Below are positions 586 to 18,229 of a stretch of DNA of 28,614 nt, piece after piece. Position numbers and translations under genes: made by a program. A model generated the notes under the pieces. It worked only from the letters and a program-made list of their open reading frames with translations, made no database searches and had not been told where the DNA came from. Position 1 is the stretch's first letter. Each line of letters opens with the position of its first letter. The stretch covers positions 1 to 28,614 of the IMG/VR virus record IMGVR_UViG_3300017991_001519, one strand, 5' to 3'. This DNA comes from a virus.

Positions 586-1041
586 TTAAACCGTTGCTAG
601 GAGAGGCTTAACCTCCCCGGTTACTGGATCTGGGATCTCCTCCGTAGTGAGGAAGGTATAGAGGATCTCCTTAATGGCTGTGTAGATGGTATCCCCTGAG
701 GGTGAGAGCATAGCGATCCGGCTAAAGCCATCGTAGGGCTCTGTAGCCTCTCCGCAGCTACATTCAGTCTCTAGGCCCCACCAAAGACCACAGCTAGGAC
801 ACCTACGCAAGCTCTGCCCATGCATTAGGGGGTTATGCCCATCCTCTAGATGATACTCCTTGACTCCTGCGATAAGGCCTGTGTTTGAATCGACATATTC
901 CACCCATTGCCCATCCTCTAGGGTGCCAAAACTAACCCAGATCTTAGCCCAATGCTCTACATTATCCTCTATCTTGATCGCAACGATCTTAGCAAAGGGT
1001 AAGATTACAGGCTCTATGGGGGTGCTTACTTCTACTGGCAT
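586..1041 (-). CDS. Zinc-ribbon protein of unknown function in appendage cluster
   Basis: This is a 151-aa protein I do not recognise as a family. The visible feature is a four-cysteine cluster, C81-x2-C84 and C94-x-C96 with GLWWGLE between, which looks like a small zinc ribbon. The first 60 residues are rich in beta-prone residues and the last 40 contain an amphipathic stretch (TAIKEILYTFL). The start has GAGG about 8 bases upstream. Its first 53 bases overlap the end of the glycosyltransferase gene in another frame. The stop codon TAA lies inside a GTTTAAAC palindrome. Position between a glycosyltransferase and a fibre gene suggests a role in appendage assembly or modification, but this is inference from context only. 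Confidence 0.7.
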   Translation of the reverse strand: MPVEVSTPIEPVILPFAKIVAIKIEDNVEHWAKIWVSFGTLEDGQWVEYVDSNTGLIAGVKEYHLEDGHNPLMHGQSLRRCPSCGLWWGLETECSCGEATEPYDGFSRIAMLSPSGDTIYTAIKEILYTFLTTEEIPDPVTGEVKPLLATV

Positions 1042-2266
1042 GGTTCCTCACAGCCTCATTGTAAACCGTTAGCGTCTCATCCGCAGCCCTCTCCCAAGTG
1101 AATTCTGCGGCCCTCTCAAGTCCTAACTCTCTAAGGTCTGCCCTTAGCTCTGGCCTTTCCAAGTGCCTAAGGGCTTCCACAATCGCGCTAGCATCTCCTG
1201 GGGGAATGATTAGGGCATACTCACCGGACCCACTACAGACGATCTCCCCTAGCCCATCTACCTCTGTCGAGATGAGAGGGACCCCCATAGCCATAGCTTC
1301 TAGCGCGACAATGCCGAAAGGCTCATGGGTGGATGGCATGAGACAGACTGTAGCAGCTCTGTAGAGGTCTTTGAGGGGCTTACCGTGCTTGAACCCTACC
1401 CATCGTAGCCTCTCAGGATGGGCAGCCTCTAAAGCCCTTATGCGCCGGGTAACGTGCCATCCTTCTTTCTCCTCCTCTGAATTGGCATTGACCGTACCGG
1501 CTAGGACCACTTGCCATCCGGGATCGCAGCTCTCCAGAGCATCCAAGATGGGCACGATCCCTTTCATCTCTGCGATCCGTCCTACGTACAGAGCAATGGG
1601 ACGGGATGTTAGCCCATTGGTAACCATTGCCCTAGCTCCGTCCCCTGCCTGTGGATTCCACTCCTCCCGATTGATTCCGTTATAGATCATCCGGTAAGGT
1701 CTATCTACTAGCATATACTCTCTGGCAATCCTTACGTATGCCTCAGAGCAGAGGATAGTCTCATCAGGATCACACAAGAGGTTTCCCTCTTGTTGGCACA
1801 TATACCGATCTGCCTCACACCCTAGATCTAGGCTGCCTTCGCTAAGACTAGCCAAGTAGCTAAGGCATAGGTGCATAGTCCCAATGAGGGGGACGTTTAA
1901 AGCATGTTTGGCAATGCGTCCCAATTGGACGGAGCCCCATTCATGCATATGGATCACGTCCCATCTCCTGCCATCTGCGATCATCTTAGCCAGAGTCTTA
2001 GCCATGAGCAGATCGGTAGACAGGAGGCAGGACATATCAGGGGCAGAGGGCCTCCAACAAGTGTGGCAGTCTCTAAGCCACTTCTTAAAACCTAGGTAGG
2101 GGATGCTATCGTCTGGGGCCATGGTCCCCGGTTTAAACTCCCCATCGGTGAGTAGATCGATCGCTACTCCCTTAGAGGCCATAGTCCGGTACAGCTCCCG
2201 AACATGCATCCCCATCCCACCTAGGATGTGTTCTGGGTCCTCTCCGCAGATCGCAAGGACTCTCAT
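989..2266 (-). CDS. GT4-family glycosyltransferase (GT-B fold)
   Basis: A 425-aa enzyme predicted to transfer a sugar from a nucleotide-sugar donor. The N-terminal Rossmann domain starts MRVLAICGEDP and carries the glycine loop GGMG (about 16-19), as in glycogen-synthase-like GT4 enzymes. The C-terminal domain has YVGRIAEMKG (about 227-236) and the family's E-x7-E motif EPFGIVALE (about 315-323). Length matches complete GT4 enzymes. I chose the ATG at 2266 because it forms an ATGA overlap with the stop of the upstream appendage gene; an in-frame ATG 24 bases earlier is less likely. No signal peptide or membrane segment is seen. Placement among appendage genes suggests it decorates a virion appendage or alters host surface glycan; acceptor and donor are unknown. 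Confidence 0.9.
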   Translation of the reverse strand: MRVLAICGEDPEHILGGMGMHVRELYRTMASKGVAIDLLTDGEFKPGTMAPDDSIPYLGFKKWLRDCHTCWRPSAPDMSCLLSTDLLMAKTLAKMIADGRRWDVIHMHEWGSVQLGRIAKHALNVPLIGTMHLCLSYLASLSEGSLDLGCEADRYMCQQEGNLLCDPDETILCSEAYVRIAREYMLVDRPYRMIYNGINREEWNPQAGDGARAMVTNGLTSRPIALYVGRIAEMKGIVPILDALESCDPGWQVVLAGTVNANSEEEKEGWHVTRRIRALEAAHPERLRWVGFKHGKPLKDLYRAATVCLMPSTHEPFGIVALEAMAMGVPLISTEVDGLGEIVCSGSGEYALIIPPGDASAIVEALRHLERPELRADLRELGLERAAEFTWERAADETLTVYNEAVRNHASRSKHPHRACNLTLC

Positions 2267-2784
2267 CCCAAAACCCCTATCTCTCCCCATGCGTTCAGAG
2301 TCTTATAGCTAGCACTGTAGTTAGTCCAAACGGTACGGAGGACCCTAGTGCTAGGACCGGTAAGAGTAAGGTAGGCATTGGTTAGGGCGATGTAATTCCC
2401 CGTAGAGTCAAACACCTTATGGCTTAGGTTAAGGGCTGCCCCTGCCTTGGAGTAAACCGCATTGTAGCTAGTGCTGCCCAAGGTGCCATGGCCTCCGAGG
2501 GAAACGGTAGAGGCCTCGATACTGGATCGGTTAGCAATGCCATAGACCCCAGCCTTACCCCCAGCTGATTCCGTTGTGTGAATGGATCGGAAGGAGAACA
2601 CAACGCATTGGGCATCAAAGGGAACAGAGATATCCCATTCCCCAGGATCACCAGGAGGAGGGGAGATGCTAAGGGTAGTGTTCACTACCTCGATACTGGA
2701 CGGCCTCAGATGATGCTGAGATACCCCAATGTTGGATAGCGCAGCATGGGCAGTCGGATGCTCTAACCAATCACTTAACCGCAT
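2263..2784 (-). CDS. Small appendage/tail protein, paralog 3 of a tandem trio
   Basis: This 173-aa protein has no family I can name. It begins MRL, has a His-His pair near residue 24 and then NTTLSI. Its C-terminal half has YSKAGAALNLSHKVFDS followed by GNYIALTNAYLTL. The same order of motifs occurs in the gene at 3253-3753 (YSKQNSDLNLTHKIFDS, then RYIALKDAVLTG), so the two are clearly paralogous. The high content of beta-prone residues, Gly, Ser and Thr fits a beta-rich virion appendage. The start overlaps the upstream paralog by 14 bases, and the stop forms ATGA with the glycosyltransferase start, so all are probably translationally coupled. Confidence 0.8.
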   Translation of the reverse strand: MRLSDWLEHPTAHAALSNIGVSQHHLRPSSIEVVNTTLSISPPPGDPGEWDISVPFDAQCVVFSFRSIHTTESAGGKAGVYGIANRSSIEASTVSLGGHGTLGSTSYNAVYSKAGAALNLSHKVFDSTGNYIALTNAYLTLTGPSTRVLRTVWTNYSASYKTLNAWGEIGVLG

Positions 2785-3253
2785 AGGTACCGTAAACAGT
2801 TAGGTTCCGGGCCGTCCCGGAAAGGTTGGTAAACTCAAAGACTGCATCCGATCCGTCAATGTAGCAGTCACGTAGAGCGATCACTCCTTGCCCGAAGTCC
2901 GAAAAACTTAGGTAAGAATCCCCATAGAGTCTGGAGTAGGCCCCCATATAGCTCTGAGTCCCACTAGGGTAGGGCCGGACTCCTACCGCGGTAGACTCTC
3001 CACTGCTATCGGAGCCCACAACGAAAACCCCGGTATGGCCTTGAATGTCTACGCTAACTGTCCCTCTCAGGACAGCCCTAATAGTCTTGCACCCAGACTT
3101 ACCTAGCGCGATCCGCAGCTGGTAGTTACCCGGTCCGATGGCTTGGCTATTGATGAGGATACGATCCGTCACAACGGACGGATGATGATCGTCCGGCTCT
3201 ACCCCGGTTAGCAGATCATGATCCGTAACGGTATGCTTAGTAGGGAGCCTCAT
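2771..3253 (-). CDS. Small appendage/tail protein, paralog 2 of a tandem trio
   Basis: I set the start at ATG 3253, giving 160 aa. It makes a TAATG overlap with the upstream paralog and restores the shared N-terminus MRL; an in-frame start 30 bases earlier would add ten residues lacking in the siblings. The protein has PDDHHP, then NSQAIGPGNYQLRIALGKSG, which aligns with NTTQSIAAGADYDLDIALGDSG of the first paralog. The C-terminal part (VIALRDCYIDGSD, ending VYGTYAVK) matches the siblings' IAL-x-DA/NAYL block. It is the most diverged of the three. No enzyme motif is seen; a structural role at the tail tip is inferred. Confidence 0.78.
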   Translation of the reverse strand: MRLPTKHTVTDHDLLTGVEPDDHHPSVVTDRILINSQAIGPGNYQLRIALGKSGCKTIRAVLRGTVSVDIQGHTGVFVVGSDSSGESTAVGVRPYPSGTQSYMGAYSRLYGDSYLSFSDFGQGVIALRDCYIDGSDAVFEFTNLSGTARNLTVYGTYAVK

Positions 3254-3753
3254 TAGTATACGTGCGCCGAACCCTTGACCCAAAGGGTCCGGGAGGAGCT
3301 GTCATAGTTGTGGAAGGTTAGCCTTAGGTTACTGCCAGTGAGCACAGCATCTTTAAGGGCTATGTAGCGGTTTCCCGAACCTGTAACACTATCGAAGATC
3401 TTATGGGTCAGATTGAGATCCGAATTCTGCTTAGAATAGGTAGAGGAATAGGTCTTATAGATTGAGCCTGAGTCCCTGCCTGTGTGCCCAATGGCCTCCG
3501 CAGAGTCCCGGGTAAAGTGGACGCTAGCCCATTCATTCCAGAGGGTAGGGGTAATGTTATGGGCTCCCATGAGCATAGCCCTACCCCACTGATAGCCACT
3601 ATCCCCTAAGGCTATGTCTAGATCATAGTCTGCCCCAGCTGCGATGCTCTGGGTAGTGTTCTCAATCGCAACTTGTTTAGGCCTCGGATGATGATCGTCC
3701 GGGCCTCCGTCCGTAGGGTGTTCCCTACCGTCTATGTTCTGCTCTAGTCTCAC
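3253..3753 (-). CDS. Small appendage/tail protein, paralog 1 of a tandem trio
   Basis: A 166-aa protein that starts with GTG at 3753-3751, forming a GTGA overlap with the stop of the upstream propeller-like gene. The next residues (RLEQN) fit the MRL start of both siblings, which supports the GTG. It contains DDHHPRP, then ENTTQSI, and a C-terminal block YSKQNSDLNLTHKIFDS followed by RYIALKDAVLTG. There is no signal peptide and no membrane segment. The tandem copies directly after the appendage gene and before the glycosyltransferase suggest receptor-binding or decorating subunits. This is inference; the family is unnamed to me. Confidence 0.78.
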   Translation of the reverse strand: MRLEQNIDGREHPTDGGPDDHHPRPKQVAIENTTQSIAAGADYDLDIALGDSGYQWGRAMLMGAHNITPTLWNEWASVHFTRDSAEAIGHTGRDSGSIYKTYSSTYSKQNSDLNLTHKIFDSVTGSGNRYIALKDAVLTGSNLRLTFHNYDSSSRTLWVKGSAHVY

Positions 3754-5648: not shown

Positions 5649-6032
5649 TTAGCCCCTAGTGCTTAGCCAATGGGTAACCAGTCCCACGATTGCAGAAGTA
5701 AGAAGGACAGCAACAAGCCCCCAGATCCGGGCCTTCCACTTGTCCTCTACGGTTACCCTACGTGCTAGCTCCCTTTCTACCCGGATTAGCTCATGCCTAC
5801 TAGACTCATCTGCTCCACACTCCAACTTGGCTAGCCTATCCTCGAAACGTTTAAACCTCTCCTCTAAGGCTTTCCTATGCTCCTCATCCCTTACGTTTAA
5901 ACGGGCATAGTCTGTAGACAGCTTCCCAAGCTCTCTAATCAGGAAGGCCTTATCCTCTGGGCGCATTGATTCCGGGATCTCCAAGGTTTGGGACTCTGGT
6001 GGTAGTTCAGGCAGGATTAGAGCTGCGGTCAC
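5649..6032 (-). CDS. Coiled-coil protein with C-terminal membrane anchor (XhlA-like)
   Basis: A 127-aa protein. Residues about 45-95 are strongly charged with heptad character (EEHRKALEERFKRFEDRL, later RVERELARRV), predicting a coiled coil. Residues about 103-121 (IWGLVAVLLTSAIVGLVTH) form one membrane segment close to the C-terminus. This layout matches XhlA-type lysis accessory proteins and some tail-anchored holin partners. It overlaps the endolysin start-to-stop (ATGA) immediately downstream of it, so a lysis role is inferred. Two GTTTAAAC palindromes lie 46 bp apart inside this gene. Confidence 0.75.
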   Translation of the reverse strand: MTAALILPELPPESQTLEIPESMRPEDKAFLIRELGKLSTDYARLNVRDEEHRKALEERFKRFEDRLAKLECGADESSRHELIRVERELARRVTVEDKWKARIWGLVAVLLTSAIVGLVTHWLSTRG

Positions 6033-7606
6033 TTTGCAATCTCCGTTGCCTCAAAGTGCATACCATCTGGACGATTGGGAAAGTCCCCACCCCAGTAGAA
6101 GCCATGATCCCAAGCGTAGGGGACAAGCTGCCTAACGCTTCCTTCCTCTCCGATGGCAGGAGGCTTAGCGCCTAACGGATTCCAAGGAGCATTGATATCA
6201 AAGGCAGTCCCGAAAGCATGGTTACTAAGGACAGACCTAGAGCCCCTGATAAACCGGGGGACCCACATTCCAGCCCAGGACTTGACTAGATGCAGGAGGC
6301 CGGATTCTTCCCAGGCTTGCCACAGCCCTAAGAAACCGGCCACGATCGATCGGTGCAATAGGACTCTGCCGTTACGTGGGGCTCCTGGGATGCCTCGGAG
6401 CTGCGGGCAGTCAACCATGGTTATCCAATCCCTTACCCAGCTATCGGTAATGCGGATGGCTTCGGGCATACCCGGGACAGGATTGGACACGTATTCAAAA
6501 CGGCCCCAGGCATCCTCTCTAGCAGCTTGCCCATACAGAGGTTTAAACGGAGGACTTACCTTCTCTGGCTCTGAGGGCTCCTCTACGGCCCCAGCCGTTG
6601 CCCAGGACTTGGGACCTACGATGCCATCCGGGATAAGCCCTCGGGCTCTCTGGTAGCGCCTAGTAGCCTCCTCCGTCAGTCTCCCAAAGTCCCCATCCGC
6701 GCCATAGGGTGAGAGGCTCTCCCCGGACGTAACCAAGACGGTCTGCCACTCCACCACAGGAGGCCCCTTGTCCCCACGTCTAAGCACAGGATGGGGCACC
6801 CTCCCGGGAGGCTCCTCAGGGGCCGCTGAGAGGGGCCGGTATTCTGGGTGGACAGTCCAAGGCAGAGGCCCCCAAAGGCTCACAGAGCCAGCCTGAGCAG
6901 GATCTCTAGCCATCTGGGCCAAGCTCACCGGTAGCCCGGACAGCTTCCCGGGTATGGCAATGTAGTAGGCCCCCATACTGTAGTCCCAAAAGTGTAGGTA
7001 AAAGTGTGCCCATTGTTCCGGTTGGACTACATAGCCGGTCCGGGAGGAGTTGACTCCTCCCCCGGGGAGCCAGCTTGCGTTTTCTCTGGCGTAGCCTTCT
7101 GAGACTGGCCACCAATACTCACAGGCATAGTCCTTGCGGTAGCGAGGGTTAAGGACATAGGTTTTACAATAGCCCAGAAGGACAGCCTCAGGATCGCATA
7201 GCTTCTCATCCTCTTGGACTGCATCATTGTGTGCCTTAGCAGCTGCCTTAGTCATTCCGGCAGCTCCGTTAGGCTGGGTATGAGGACCGATATACTCAGC
7301 CCCCGGGAGAGCTGCCAGCTTGTCTAGAAGCAAGCTGGTAGGAGTCATGACAGGACAGCCCATCTCCCCCAAGACCTCAGCGATCCGATCCATGGCAAAA
7401 GCGGACAGCCCAAAGAGATAGACGTAATCCTCCGAGGTCCCGATCGCCAAAGGCCTAGCAAAGATCTTAGCCTCTAGATTGCCAATGGTGAGCTTATGCC
7501 ACCGGATGTAAGCATGGCCATCCCGGATAGCCTTAACGATGGCCTTTAGGTAACCATCGCCCAGATCTTCCGGGACCTCCTCAGCCCACCATTGGGACCC
7601 CTTCAT
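6029..7606 (-). CDS. Endolysin: N-terminal novel module, PG-binding domain, M15 peptidase
   Basis: A 525-aa, three-part protein predicted to cut peptidoglycan peptides. Residues 1-265 form a module I do not recognise, rich in Trp, Tyr and His (LHFWDYSMGAYY at 204-215). Residues about 274-337 are a PG_binding_1 domain (LRRGDKGPPVVEWQ, then YGADGDFG, then DGIVGPKSW). The C-terminus is an M15 VanY/endolysin-type metallopeptidase: SNHAFGTAFDIN at 461-472 provides ligands H463 and D470, and DGMHFE at 514-519 supplies H517. There is no signal peptide, so export would need a holin. At 525 aa it is much longer than simple M15 endolysins. The start overlaps the 53-aa gene as ATGA. Confidence 0.88.
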   Translation of the reverse strand: MKGSQWWAEEVPEDLGDGYLKAIVKAIRDGHAYIRWHKLTIGNLEAKIFARPLAIGTSEDYVYLFGLSAFAMDRIAEVLGEMGCPVMTPTSLLLDKLAALPGAEYIGPHTQPNGAAGMTKAAAKAHNDAVQEDEKLCDPEAVLLGYCKTYVLNPRYRKDYACEYWWPVSEGYARENASWLPGGGVNSSRTGYVVQPEQWAHFYLHFWDYSMGAYYIAIPGKLSGLPVSLAQMARDPAQAGSVSLWGPLPWTVHPEYRPLSAAPEEPPGRVPHPVLRRGDKGPPVVEWQTVLVTSGESLSPYGADGDFGRLTEEATRRYQRARGLIPDGIVGPKSWATAGAVEEPSEPEKVSPPFKPLYGQAAREDAWGRFEYVSNPVPGMPEAIRITDSWVRDWITMVDCPQLRGIPGAPRNGRVLLHRSIVAGFLGLWQAWEESGLLHLVKSWAGMWVPRFIRGSRSVLSNHAFGTAFDINAPWNPLGAKPPAIGEEGSVRQLVPYAWDHGFYWGGDFPNRPDGMHFEATEIAK

Positions 7607-15799: not shown

Positions 15800-16428
15800 T
15801 CAGCCCTGGGCTTTGGCATCTAGCTCCGCTAGCGCGTCTAGCACGTCATGGGCATCATACAGATCGTCTAAGGTCCAGCGCTCCTCTATCTCCACTAGGG
15901 AGGAGCTGTAATGCTTGGAGCTAGCGATCCTGTGGATCGCCCAATCTACATGACTTGGGATTCTGACGGAGCAGAGCTTGGCTCCTTTCCGTCCGAATCC
16001 TGGGGAGGTCTGCCCGCTAGTGCTCTGGCTTCCTCTCCTATCACGGCTAAAAAACTGCCGTAGTTTGCCTCCAAACAGAAGGTAAGCCACTCTCCAAGCT
16101 CAAGGTATCTACCAGCAAAGTGGGTATCAAAAAAGTCCACTAGCTTGGGCTCATTCGATCCATACTCCCCACCGGTAACTCTAGTCTTAGCAGCGAAAGA
16201 ATCGCAGAGGTAATCGTAATCCTCCTCTGAGATATGCTCTGTTAGGCTAGCAATGGTCCGGCCAATGATGGCTGTGTTAAGACCACTGCTAGCCTCTACG
16301 GTTTCTCCTACGGCCGCGCCTAGCATCTTCGCTAGACGAACAAGCATCCGGCCTCCTGCTTTGGCTCCGAATTGCTCCACCTTATAGGTGTGCTTTCCGA
16401 TAACCTTACTCTTAACCTCAATTCCCAT
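15800..16428 (-). CDS. Tail assembly chaperone, -1 frameshift product (GT-like)
   Basis: The downstream reading frame (stop at 15800) lies in the -1 frame relative to the chaperone and is entered at the TTTTTTA heptamer at 16054-16048. The product would share 127 residues with the short form and then continue SRDRRGSQSTSGQ... for 82 residues, 209 aa in total. The C-terminal block IHRIASSKHYSSSLVEIEERWTLDDLYDAHDVLDALAELD is conserved-looking and helical, unlike the in-frame ending of the short form. In lambda and most long-tailed phages a -1 shift joins G and T in the same gene position, with T recruiting tube protein. The existence of a -1 heptamer exactly in frame is strong evidence; efficiency is unknown. 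Confidence 0.85.
15946..16428 (-). CDS. Tail assembly chaperone, short (zero-frame) product
   Basis: A 160-aa protein between the tail tube and tape-measure genes, the position of tail assembly chaperones such as lambda gpG and Mu gp41. Its sequence (VIGKHTYKVEQFGAKAGGRMLVRLAKMLG, then RTIASLTEHISEEDYDYLCDSFA, then RYLELGEWLTFCLEANYGSF) fits the Phage_TAC type of helical chaperone. The in-frame ending after the slip site (AVIGEEARALAGRPP-QDSDG) is low complexity, as expected of a zero-frame tail. The start is 39 bases after the tube gene stop, with a GTTTAAAC in that gap. See the frameshift feature for the long form. Confidence 0.85.
   Translation of the reverse strand: MGIEVKSKVIGKHTYKVEQFGAKAGGRMLVRLAKMLGAAVGETVEASSGLNTAIIGRTIASLTEHISEEDYDYLCDSFAAKTRVTGGEYGSNEPKLVDFFDTHFAGRYLELGEWLTFCLEANYGSFLAVIGEEARALAGRPPQDSDGKEPSSAPSESQVM
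16048..16054 (-). other. Programmed -1 frameshift slippery site TTTTTTA
   Basis: On the minus strand the chaperone frame reads AGT TTT TTA GCC, so the heptamer is T TTT TTA, the same slip sequence used by HIV-1. Slippage by -1 leads to the 82-residue extension. I looked for a downstream stem-loop and found none I would defend. Confidence 0.85.
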
Positions 16429-16467: not shown

Positions 16468-16899
16468 CTAGTTACCCCCGTCGAATCTCTCAGGGCTGGC
16501 AGCCCTGAGAGTCCACTCTCTAGCCGTAGGCTCTCTATCGTAAGACACGTCCGGGGGCTTAGCGATCCAAGCCTCCGCAGCTGCAAAGAGGGAGGTCCCT
16601 TGACGGTCCCGGACTAGGATAGGTGCAACCCCTGCCCCATTGCCTGCCAACCGATCTAGATTGTTCAGGGCTGAGAGCTTGGCGTTACCGTCCGATGACT
16701 GCATAAGAAGGATCGTAATCGTGGTCCTACGATCATTGGTCTTAGCCCGGGTAACCTCCCCATCCGTGCCTACCACATCTACGAAGTCCTCCGTTTCCTG
16801 CTCGATACGGCAAAACTCCCCATCTGCATAGCCGGAATCAATGTCCAGCCCTGCAAAGTTGATCGTTACCTCGTTAGCGTCATATACCTTGAAAGCCAT
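16468..16899 (-). CDS. Tail tube protein, DUF3277-like
   Basis: A 143-aa protein in the tube position right after the sheath gene. The pattern YDANEVTINFAGLDIDSGYADGEFCRIEQ, then VDVVGTDGEVTRAKTNDRRTTITILL and ARDRQGTSLFAAAEAWIAKPP resembles the DUF3277 tail tube family (Mu gp40-type). Length is normal for the family. A Shine-Dalgarno (AAAGGA) lies before the ATG at 16899. It forms the inner tube that passes DNA and is contacted by the chaperone encoded next. Confidence 0.88.
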   Translation of the reverse strand: MAFKVYDANEVTINFAGLDIDSGYADGEFCRIEQETEDFVDVVGTDGEVTRAKTNDRRTTITILLMQSSDGNAKLSALNNLDRLAGNGAGVAPILVRDRQGTSLFAAAEAWIAKPPDVSYDREPTAREWTLRAASPERFDGGN

Positions 16900-16915: not shown

Positions 16916-18229
16916 TTAGACGCTAAGCGTCCCTGTGATAACTAGCTTGTGGATTGCCCCCGCTAGCGTTGCCTGGAATTCGATATCTGGCAGATTACGG
17001 CTAGCCTTATCCGCTACGTCAATGTCTGCCACAAGTGGGGCCGTTACCGTTGGGGCCGGATCTGCTGCTAGCCCTCCTGCGTCGATACCCTGCCGCAGCT
17101 GTGCCAAGATAGCCCCTCGCATGAGGTCCACTCCTGCATCTGTGTAAGGGATCTTTTCGTTGTTAACCAGGATGCCAAAGATCCGCTCCTTGATCCTGGC
17201 ATCTAGCCAATCAATGAATCGGGTAACGTCTATGAATTCCCCGGCCGCAGTAGTGCCATAGCGGGTAACAGAAACGTTAGCCACGGAAGTGTAGTGGTTA
17301 GCGTTTTTGCCCTCGATAGATGCAAGGTGAGCCCCAGTCAACTTGGTATCTACTGTGACTCCTGCCAGGGTCTTGTAAGCCCAAGTGGAGCTGCCAGGAT
17401 CGCTAGGCAAGCGCTGGCCAGCCCATCCGGCCGCTGAGAAGTTCAGCAGACTAGCCATGCTATAGATAAGGGCAGTCCTAGCGTAGCTGTTGTTTTTCAG
17501 ATCGGAGGCCACATCATCCGTAACGGATACGTCAATGATGCCATGATCCATACTGTTGCAGACGAAGATCTTTTTTCGTGCTTCGATCCAAGCTGCGGCA
17601 GCTGCGATCTCTGCCTCTCCTTGCGAGTCCAGGAGGAGACAATACCACCCATCTGCGTCCACTCCCTCGATAGCTGCTAGGTCCGTAGCAATGCCCGGAT
17701 CTGCGGTCACATCTTGGAAAGTGAAGTTGTCCGGCTCATCAAAGCCGGAATAGTCTACCAGAGTCCCGGCTGTGTCTGTGTCTACCGTTACGTGGGTAGT
17801 GTCATCCGTAGCGCTAACTCCTGAGATGGCATCAATGAGAGCTGTGAGGGCCGTAACGATCGTAGCCACGGTTTCCGCTGCCCCATTGGTGTAAGAGACT
17901 TCGGTCCCTGCCACATCAAAGACATACTCGTAATCCTCCGTGGTATTGATCGGAGTGATCTTTACGGACTGAGTATAGCTAAGGACTCTCTTACCAATCT
18001 TCCAGGATGCAGGCTTGGGATTCTGGCTAGCTACCTTGGTTGCGATGATGACTGCTAGGTCCGTTGCCACGAAGCCATCATCAGTCATAGTAGCTAGCTT
18101 AGTGTATGCCCGGACCAGATCCGGGAATACGTTGTGGACTGTGGCGATTAGCGGGGTCCCGAACCCAAGCCTACTAGGTGTAGTGGTCTGGGCCGTAATG
18201 GTGACGTTAACGATATCCTCTAGTGACAT
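16916..18229 (-). CDS. Contractile tail sheath, DUF3383-like
   Basis: A 437-aa protein. The N-terminus (SLEDIVNVTITAQTTTPSRLGFGTPLIAT) matches the opening of DUF3383 sheath proteins, and later blocks (WYCLLLDSQGEAEIAAAAAWIEARKKIFVC, then RFIDWLDARIKERIFGILVNN, then IEFQATLAGAIHKLVITGTLSV) fit the same family. The C-terminal handshake-type strands are the part that links sheath subunits. Its presence makes the phage a myovirus. It is 10 bases from the tail terminator gene and 16 bases before the tube gene. Confidence 0.92.
   Translation of the reverse strand: MSLEDIVNVTITAQTTTPSRLGFGTPLIATVHNVFPDLVRAYTKLATMTDDGFVATDLAVIIATKVASQNPKPASWKIGKRVLSYTQSVKITPINTTEDYEYVFDVAGTEVSYTNGAAETVATIVTALTALIDAISGVSATDDTTHVTVDTDTAGTLVDYSGFDEPDNFTFQDVTADPGIATDLAAIEGVDADGWYCLLLDSQGEAEIAAAAAWIEARKKIFVCNSMDHGIIDVSVTDDVASDLKNNSYARTALIYSMASLLNFSAAGWAGQRLPSDPGSSTWAYKTLAGVTVDTKLTGAHLASIEGKNANHYTSVANVSVTRYGTTAAGEFIDVTRFIDWLDARIKERIFGILVNNEKIPYTDAGVDLMRGAILAQLRQGIDAGGLAADPAPTVTAPLVADIDVADKASRNLPDIEFQATLAGAIHKLVITGTLSV

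Follow-up and report, generated by a model that had tools for sequence, protein, structure and literature searches.

A probable programmed -1 ribosomal frameshift at T_TTT_TTA in the tail assembly chaperone gene of an environmental contractile-tail phage

Introduction

In phage lambda, as described in passages of a published account (PMC5009743), a -1 frameshift near the end of a tail assembly chaperone gene yields gpG and gpGT at a ratio of 30:1, and both products act on the tape-measure protein. According to passages of the paper on phage Adele (PMC12846349), a -1 frameshift is conserved in Vandenendeviridae, where all 56 unique alleles found in 159 genomes share the motif GTTTTT, and this motif recurs in an alignment covering 231 Andersonviridae phages. 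The frameshift has also been published for the Felix O1-like phages Moogle and Mijalis, in announcements whose relevant passages give no slip sequence (PMC4319497, PMC5543628). Frameshifts of this kind are commonplace among tailed phages, with published descriptions for neighbouring groups. Here we analyse the tail assembly chaperone gene on a stretch of 28,614 bases from a virus (IMG/VR record IMGVR_UViG_3300017991_001519), referred to as the window in its entirety. Judging from its sequence and that of its relatives, we estimate a probability of roughly 0.93 that a programmed -1 ribosomal frameshift at a T_TTT_TTA heptamer yields two tail assembly chaperones from this one gene.

As portrayed in passages of the Adele paper (PMC12846349), Vandenendeviridae and Andersonviridae resemble the window in their contractile tail, a 0-frame chaperone, a -1 extension ahead of the tape measure and a slip site within a T run. 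They differ in that protein identity to the window is low, with the sheath reaching at most 37%, and Pakpunavirus carries GTTTTT in another phase, which forms no canonical heptamer. The Felix O1-like relative VpaE1 reads AGT TTT TTC, in the same phase as the window, with TTTTTTC in place of TTTTTTA.

Results

The heptamer lies in phase within an overlap of two open frames

The window carries a minus-strand contractile-tail module with genes for terminase, portal, capsid, sheath, a tube-type protein, chaperone, tape measure and baseplate, and its order sheath-tube-tail assembly chaperone (TAC)-tape measure places the chaperone directly upstream of the tape measure (Table 1). The chaperone open reading frame (ORF) matches Pfam TAC_15 (PF21822; E 3.4e-14; 53.9 bits versus a curated cut-off of 22) and the tail assembly chaperones of PHROG 1613 (E 3.6e-16). 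An earlier note on this DNA had placed T TTT TTA at 16054-16048 in the chaperone frame; it is indeed there in the right phase, near the 3' end of the gene and inside the two-frame overlap, and is the sole in-phase XXXYYYZ sequence in the ORF starting at 16428. The -1 frame contains no stop between 16099 and 15803 and terminates at 15802-15800. Counted from heptamer base 7, a -1 slip adds exactly the 82 residues that the note had given, with the end at 15800, and the predicted fusion measures 127 + 82 = 209 amino acids (aa). The ATG of the tape-measure gene begins 10 bases past this stop.

TTTTTTA occurs only once in the window (minus strand), as compared to a dinucleotide-shuffle expectation of 1.30 per window; the bare heptamer is not rare, and what stands out is its place. 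The 35 genes called in the window (9082 codons) contain 20 in-phase XXXYYYZ heptamers. Only two of these lead at least 10 codons beyond the stop of their own gene, namely the chaperone site and TTTGGGA at 2272. When codons were resampled with the protein kept and according to window usage, TTTTTT fell at the slip place in 3.0% of trials, and TTTTTT together with a -1 frame open to the 0-frame stop in 0.34%.

TTTGGGA at 2272 was rejected as a second frameshift site: it corresponds to an ATGA stop/start overlap with a downstream glycosyltransferase gene. This gene (989-2290, minus strand) encodes a family 4 glycosyltransferase (Pfam PF00534, 1.9e-27) and adjoins tail-end genes, and its likely start shares the ATGA at 2266 with the upstream stop.

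The putative slip site is retained or exchanged in phase in most relatives

The decisive evidence for a frameshift is comparative. The chaperones of three close relatives (L002, L003 and L004, the latter two nearly identical) are 72-76% identical to that of the window, and their genes keep the TTTTTTA heptamer letter for letter. For distant relatives, a protein-alignment search with the chaperone provided 39 loci, which together with the window make 40 rows and 32 distinct slip contexts. The alignment seeding this search (A4) included L072 and L087, the latter identical to L099, and the peptide patterns used exclude the slip region. A separate pattern scan with TTTTTTA gave 79 stretches, most of them without a chaperone match; being selected for the heptamer, they were excluded from all counts, with L018 and L072 serving as examples only, although the L072 contig was recovered again by the protein search (as L112). 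Chaperone relatives were absent from the genome contigs and only three, at ~26% identity, were present in the phage collection.

In all 36 loci that are not cut by the contig end (three of the 39 are), the -1 frame remains open for 28-76 codons beyond the chaperone stop. Alignment of the heptamer in relatives, which the earlier note had proposed as a check, places TTTTTTN at the same codon in 26 of the 32 contexts (12 TTTTTTC, 7 TTTTTTA, 4 TTTTTTT and 3 TTTTTTG). In four further contexts, CCCTTTG or CCCTTTC stands one codon earlier with the tandem-slip phase kept. The loci with CCCTTTG or CCCTTTC instead of T6 are L119, L120, L121, L122, L126 and L129.

Codon choice at the site was assessed in 28 distinct ORFs that had been selected for having TTTTTT. 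In these 28 ORFs, Phe at the slip site is encoded by TTT, a codon used for only 44 of 186 Phe residues elsewhere in the same chaperone ORFs and for only 275 of 1142 in other long ORFs of their loci (GC 0.51-0.68). The codon preceding the slip Phe ends in T in the 28 ORFs; elsewhere, the share of T-ending codons ranges from 0.04 to 0.53.

Among ten chaperone regions from named phages, a canonical heptamer is present in the overlap in seven, and the -1 frame runs 47-86 codons past the stop in all ten. TTTTTTC is found in Hafnia phage SarahDanielle and in VpaE1 (Felixounavirus), MiCath and PVN04, TTTTTTG in Klebsiella phage ST405-OXA48phi1.2 and TTTTTTT, beside CCCTTTT, in Enterobacter phage vB_Ecl_MII_003. 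A Barbavirus relative has GGGAAAG in the overlap, where heptamer presence alone was tested. PAK_P1, which was read apart from the ten, has an ORF of 64 aa annotated in the -1 phase. None of the 11 deposited annotations of these regions fuses the extension to the chaperone. In the Barbavirus relative (L138, 4919-5596, minus strand), chaperone extension and tape measure are separated by a putative DNA-binding gene that is encoded on the opposite strand.

The T run raises the question of whether RNA polymerase, rather than the ribosome, slips on T6 and thereby joins the frames. A run of at least six T in 26 of 32 contexts would fit this explanation. However, the four CCCTTTN contexts and the GGGAAAG of the Barbavirus relative display the tandem-slip pattern without a long homopolymer run, and T6 is short for polymerase slippage. 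We therefore regard transcriptional slippage as very improbable.

The -1 frame is under selection as protein

The extension is 83-91% identical over 55 aa in L002-L004. To the region following the 0-frame stop, we applied the ratio of non-synonymous to synonymous changes (pN/pS) in three independent pairs among the window, L002 and L003. Values in the -1 frame are 0.08 (window-L002), 0.18 (window-L003) and 0.10 (L002-L003), whereas the two other frames of the same region give 0.63-4.4. Low pN/pS in the -1 frame alone is what a protein-coding extension in this frame predicts. Conservation of the shifted frame as protein is likewise evident from a 24-row alignment (A6), in which the relatives have a common core of roughly IP.h.DW.IwRva.S.ry..sL.eI...WtldDl.dAh.vLD. 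A structure model of the extension contains three helices (mean predicted local distance difference test score, pLDDT, 80.2).

PHROG 4625, whose function is unknown, matches 14 of the 24 extension members (best 5.3e-06). A Pfam scan returned no fitting family for the window extension, Pfam and PHROGs scans gave no match to a lambda T family, a fold search of the PDB with the extension yielded nothing useful and tblastn with it found no match in phages. In a fold search with the extension, a PaP1 protein ranked first and a 64-aa PAK_P1 protein third, both with weak E-values; the latter equals the annotated -1 ORF of PAK_P1 as far as length tells. The PAK_P4 extension aligns over 44 columns (P 0.0015, probability 16.6).

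These data also bear on the idea that the arrangement reflects gene decay or an error made in assembly or sequencing. The window is a 28.6 kb virus record for which no completeness estimate is given, which leaves some room for such an error. However, the same arrangement recurs in independent contigs and in separately sequenced isolates, and the shifted frame is under purifying selection, making an artefact or a decayed gene extremely improbable.

Predicted RNA structure and upstream sequence

The earlier note saw no obvious stem-loop. This did not hold, since folding of the 105 nt from the heptamer onwards predicts two hairpins in the window and in L002, L003 and L004, with z-scores relative to dinucleotide shuffles of -4.20, -4.51, -1.92 and -1.62, respectively. 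All four have an identical outer stem in hairpin 1; in the stem after it, GCC/GGC is replaced by GCG/UGC, and the apical stem re-pairs with other letters. As support for a stimulator, this re-pairing is suggestive only, given three sequence types and a region that would be coding in two frames. Strong hairpins also occur in several distant relatives (e.g. L125, z -3.63), but they are unrelated to these.

Upstream, GGAGG is a candidate stimulator resembling a Shine-Dalgarno sequence, and at dnaX an upstream Shine-Dalgarno site stimulates shifting. Glu is encoded by GAG at the GGAGG site in 39 of 40 rows, whereas GAG accounts for 269 of 378 Glu codons elsewhere in these ORFs. Hafnia phage L088 has GAA at this site, showing that GGAGG is not general. 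Both the hairpins and the upstream GGAGG may help slipping.

Observations that weigh against a frameshift

Several observations have to be set against this interpretation. First, the earlier note held that it would be refuted if the heptamer were lost and the frame kept, and this does occur in distant relatives. Two of the 32 contexts lack an in-phase canonical heptamer yet keep the extension, L099 reading GAT TTT ATG (around 2482-2510) and L123 reading GAT TTA TTC (around 3380-3400). The same is true for the named phages PAK_P4, LSL4 and Ab3-TPeters, in which no canonical heptamer lies in the overlap, and for PAK_P1, which has none in phase. L099 and L123 may use another shift mode or another site, or may contain a sequence error; how they shift, if at all, is the least explained point. 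More generally, relatives without the heptamer may use other shift sequences, and the case for the window's own clade, in which the heptamer is invariant, stands. Second, when 70 nt downstream were tested, the window obtained a z of +0.41, which is not better than the rest of the locus. Across 32 loci, some of them near-identical, z averaged -0.65 and fell below -1 in 11; on account of this mean and the window value, downstream structure was rejected as family-wide proof. Third, A_AAA_AAG is much more shift-prone in E. coli than U_UUU_UUA, according to passages of the lambda account (PMC5009743).

Finally, the window has an in-frame GTG in the -1 frame at 16090, which is unique among the four close relatives. 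The -1 frame could hence be a separate small gene that is translated from this start, or by re-initiation after the chaperone stop. Records with separate ORFs are in line with this view, namely the 64-aa ORF of PAK_P1 and the second chaperone ORF in VpaE1 and a Hafnia phage. However, the scan used detected no Shine-Dalgarno-like sequence at GTG 16090, nor such a motif at any of the -1 starts found. L002-L004 have a stop in the -1 frame three codons ahead of the heptamer, with no ATG, GTG or TTG between this stop and the domain. Such start codons are missing between the upstream -1 stop and the domain in at least eight of the 32 loci (L002, L003, L004, L095, L103, L107, L108 and L113); the domain finder misfired on L106, L111, L115, L116, L120 and L121, which are not among the eight. 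Homologs translating the second frame from its own start would, according to the earlier note, have spoken against a frameshift, and the eight or more relatives without a possible start codon speak in favour of one. Moreover, a separate start leaves the third-base choices in the heptamer unexplained. On balance, a separate gene appears about as improbable as polymerase slippage, and a programmed frameshift is the reading that we retain.

Table 1. Features of the tail module and of the putative frameshift site, in window positions.
Feature	Position	Strand	Basis
Contractile tail sheath	16916..18229	-	PHROG 205 tail sheath, E 2.2e-90
Tail tube-type protein, upstream of chaperone (KPP10_Orf10 / DUF3277)	16468..16899	-	Pfam, E 1.6e-12
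Short tail assembly chaperone ORF (TAC-N, gpG-like), 160 aa, ATG start	15946..16428	-	Pfam TAC_15, PHROG 1613
GGAGG, Shine-Dalgarno-like, 13 nt before heptamer, candidate upstream stimulator	16068..16072	-	read from sequence
Putative slip heptamer T_TTT_TTA, frame X_XXY_YYZ	16048..16054	-	sequence phase and conservation in relatives
Predicted hairpin 1, from 10th base after heptamer; outer stem GG.GAGG / CCUC.CC	16002..16038	-	folding, four relatives
Predicted hairpin 2, GGAUUC.GACGGA / UCCGUC.GAAUCC	15958..16000	-	folding
-1 extension, 82 codons plus stop; predicted C-terminal domain of long chaperone (TAC-NC, gpGT-like)	15800..16048	-	conservation, pN/pS, model
Tape-measure gene, 590 aa	14018..15790	-	PHROG 8125 tail length tape measure, E 9.1e-33

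Elsewhere on the minus strand, the window encodes a putative endolysin of 525 aa with an M15 peptidase and a peptidoglycan-binding domain (6029-7606). Three neighbouring ORFs of 166-173 aa (2263-3753) are similar by eye and perhaps represent duplicated fibre or decoration proteins.

Discussion

Taken together, the tail chaperone gene of the window very probably employs a programmed -1 ribosomal frameshift to produce two chaperone forms. Phase, open frame, conservation, selection and the absence of separate starts in relatives are read from the sequences. Gene order, phase, conservation of the heptamer and selection acting on the extension lend strong support to the likeness to lambda G/GT that the earlier note had proposed. 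The lambda tail is non-contractile, which distinguishes it from that of the window.

We infer the slipping itself, its rate and the division of labour between the two proteins. Most ribosomes would stay in the 0 frame and synthesize the 160-aa protein, whereas a minority would slip back one base at U_UUU_UUA while tRNA-Phe is bound in the P site and tRNA-Leu occupies or enters the A site. These ribosomes would produce the 209-aa protein, consisting of the first 127 residues common to both forms and the 82-residue extension that is predicted to end in a three-helix domain. The junction should read NYGSFL-SRDRR, or NYGSFF-SRDRR if Phe is accepted after a P-site slip; the predicted junction peptide is YLELGEWLTFCLEANYGSFLSR, the alternative being its SFFSR variant. 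By analogy with lambda gpG/gpGT, the shared part may coat the tape-measure protein and the extension may recruit the tail tube subunit. Slip efficiency would set the ratio of the two forms, and a low shift rate at U_UUU_UUA would suit a ratio like the 30:1 of lambda.

The earlier note considered that the slip sequence might be new for this phage group. This suggestion has to be dropped, as T6 slip sites predominate in the family and the frameshift is published for related groups. A search of literature titles and abstract openings found no TTTTTTA or UUUUUUA for a phage tail gene, and we do not claim the heptamer as unreported.

A more tentative idea, which we consider possible albeit doubtful, is that the family keeps the shift while exchanging its signal. 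Some members would then use single-tRNA slippage (e.g. at GAT TTT ATG) or another signal, and the site in the window would be driven by GGAGG and the two tandem hairpins. If true, the family would offer a natural series for studying the turnover of frameshift signals without loss of the product. The heptamer swaps across relatives could, in addition, help to test the requirements of bacterial -1 sites. The window adds a divergent, undescribed environmental lineage of contractile-tail phages to those with frameshifted chaperones, and, through phase, codon choice, selection and the lack of separate starts, provides strong comparative evidence for a signal that is split or overlooked by annotation pipelines.
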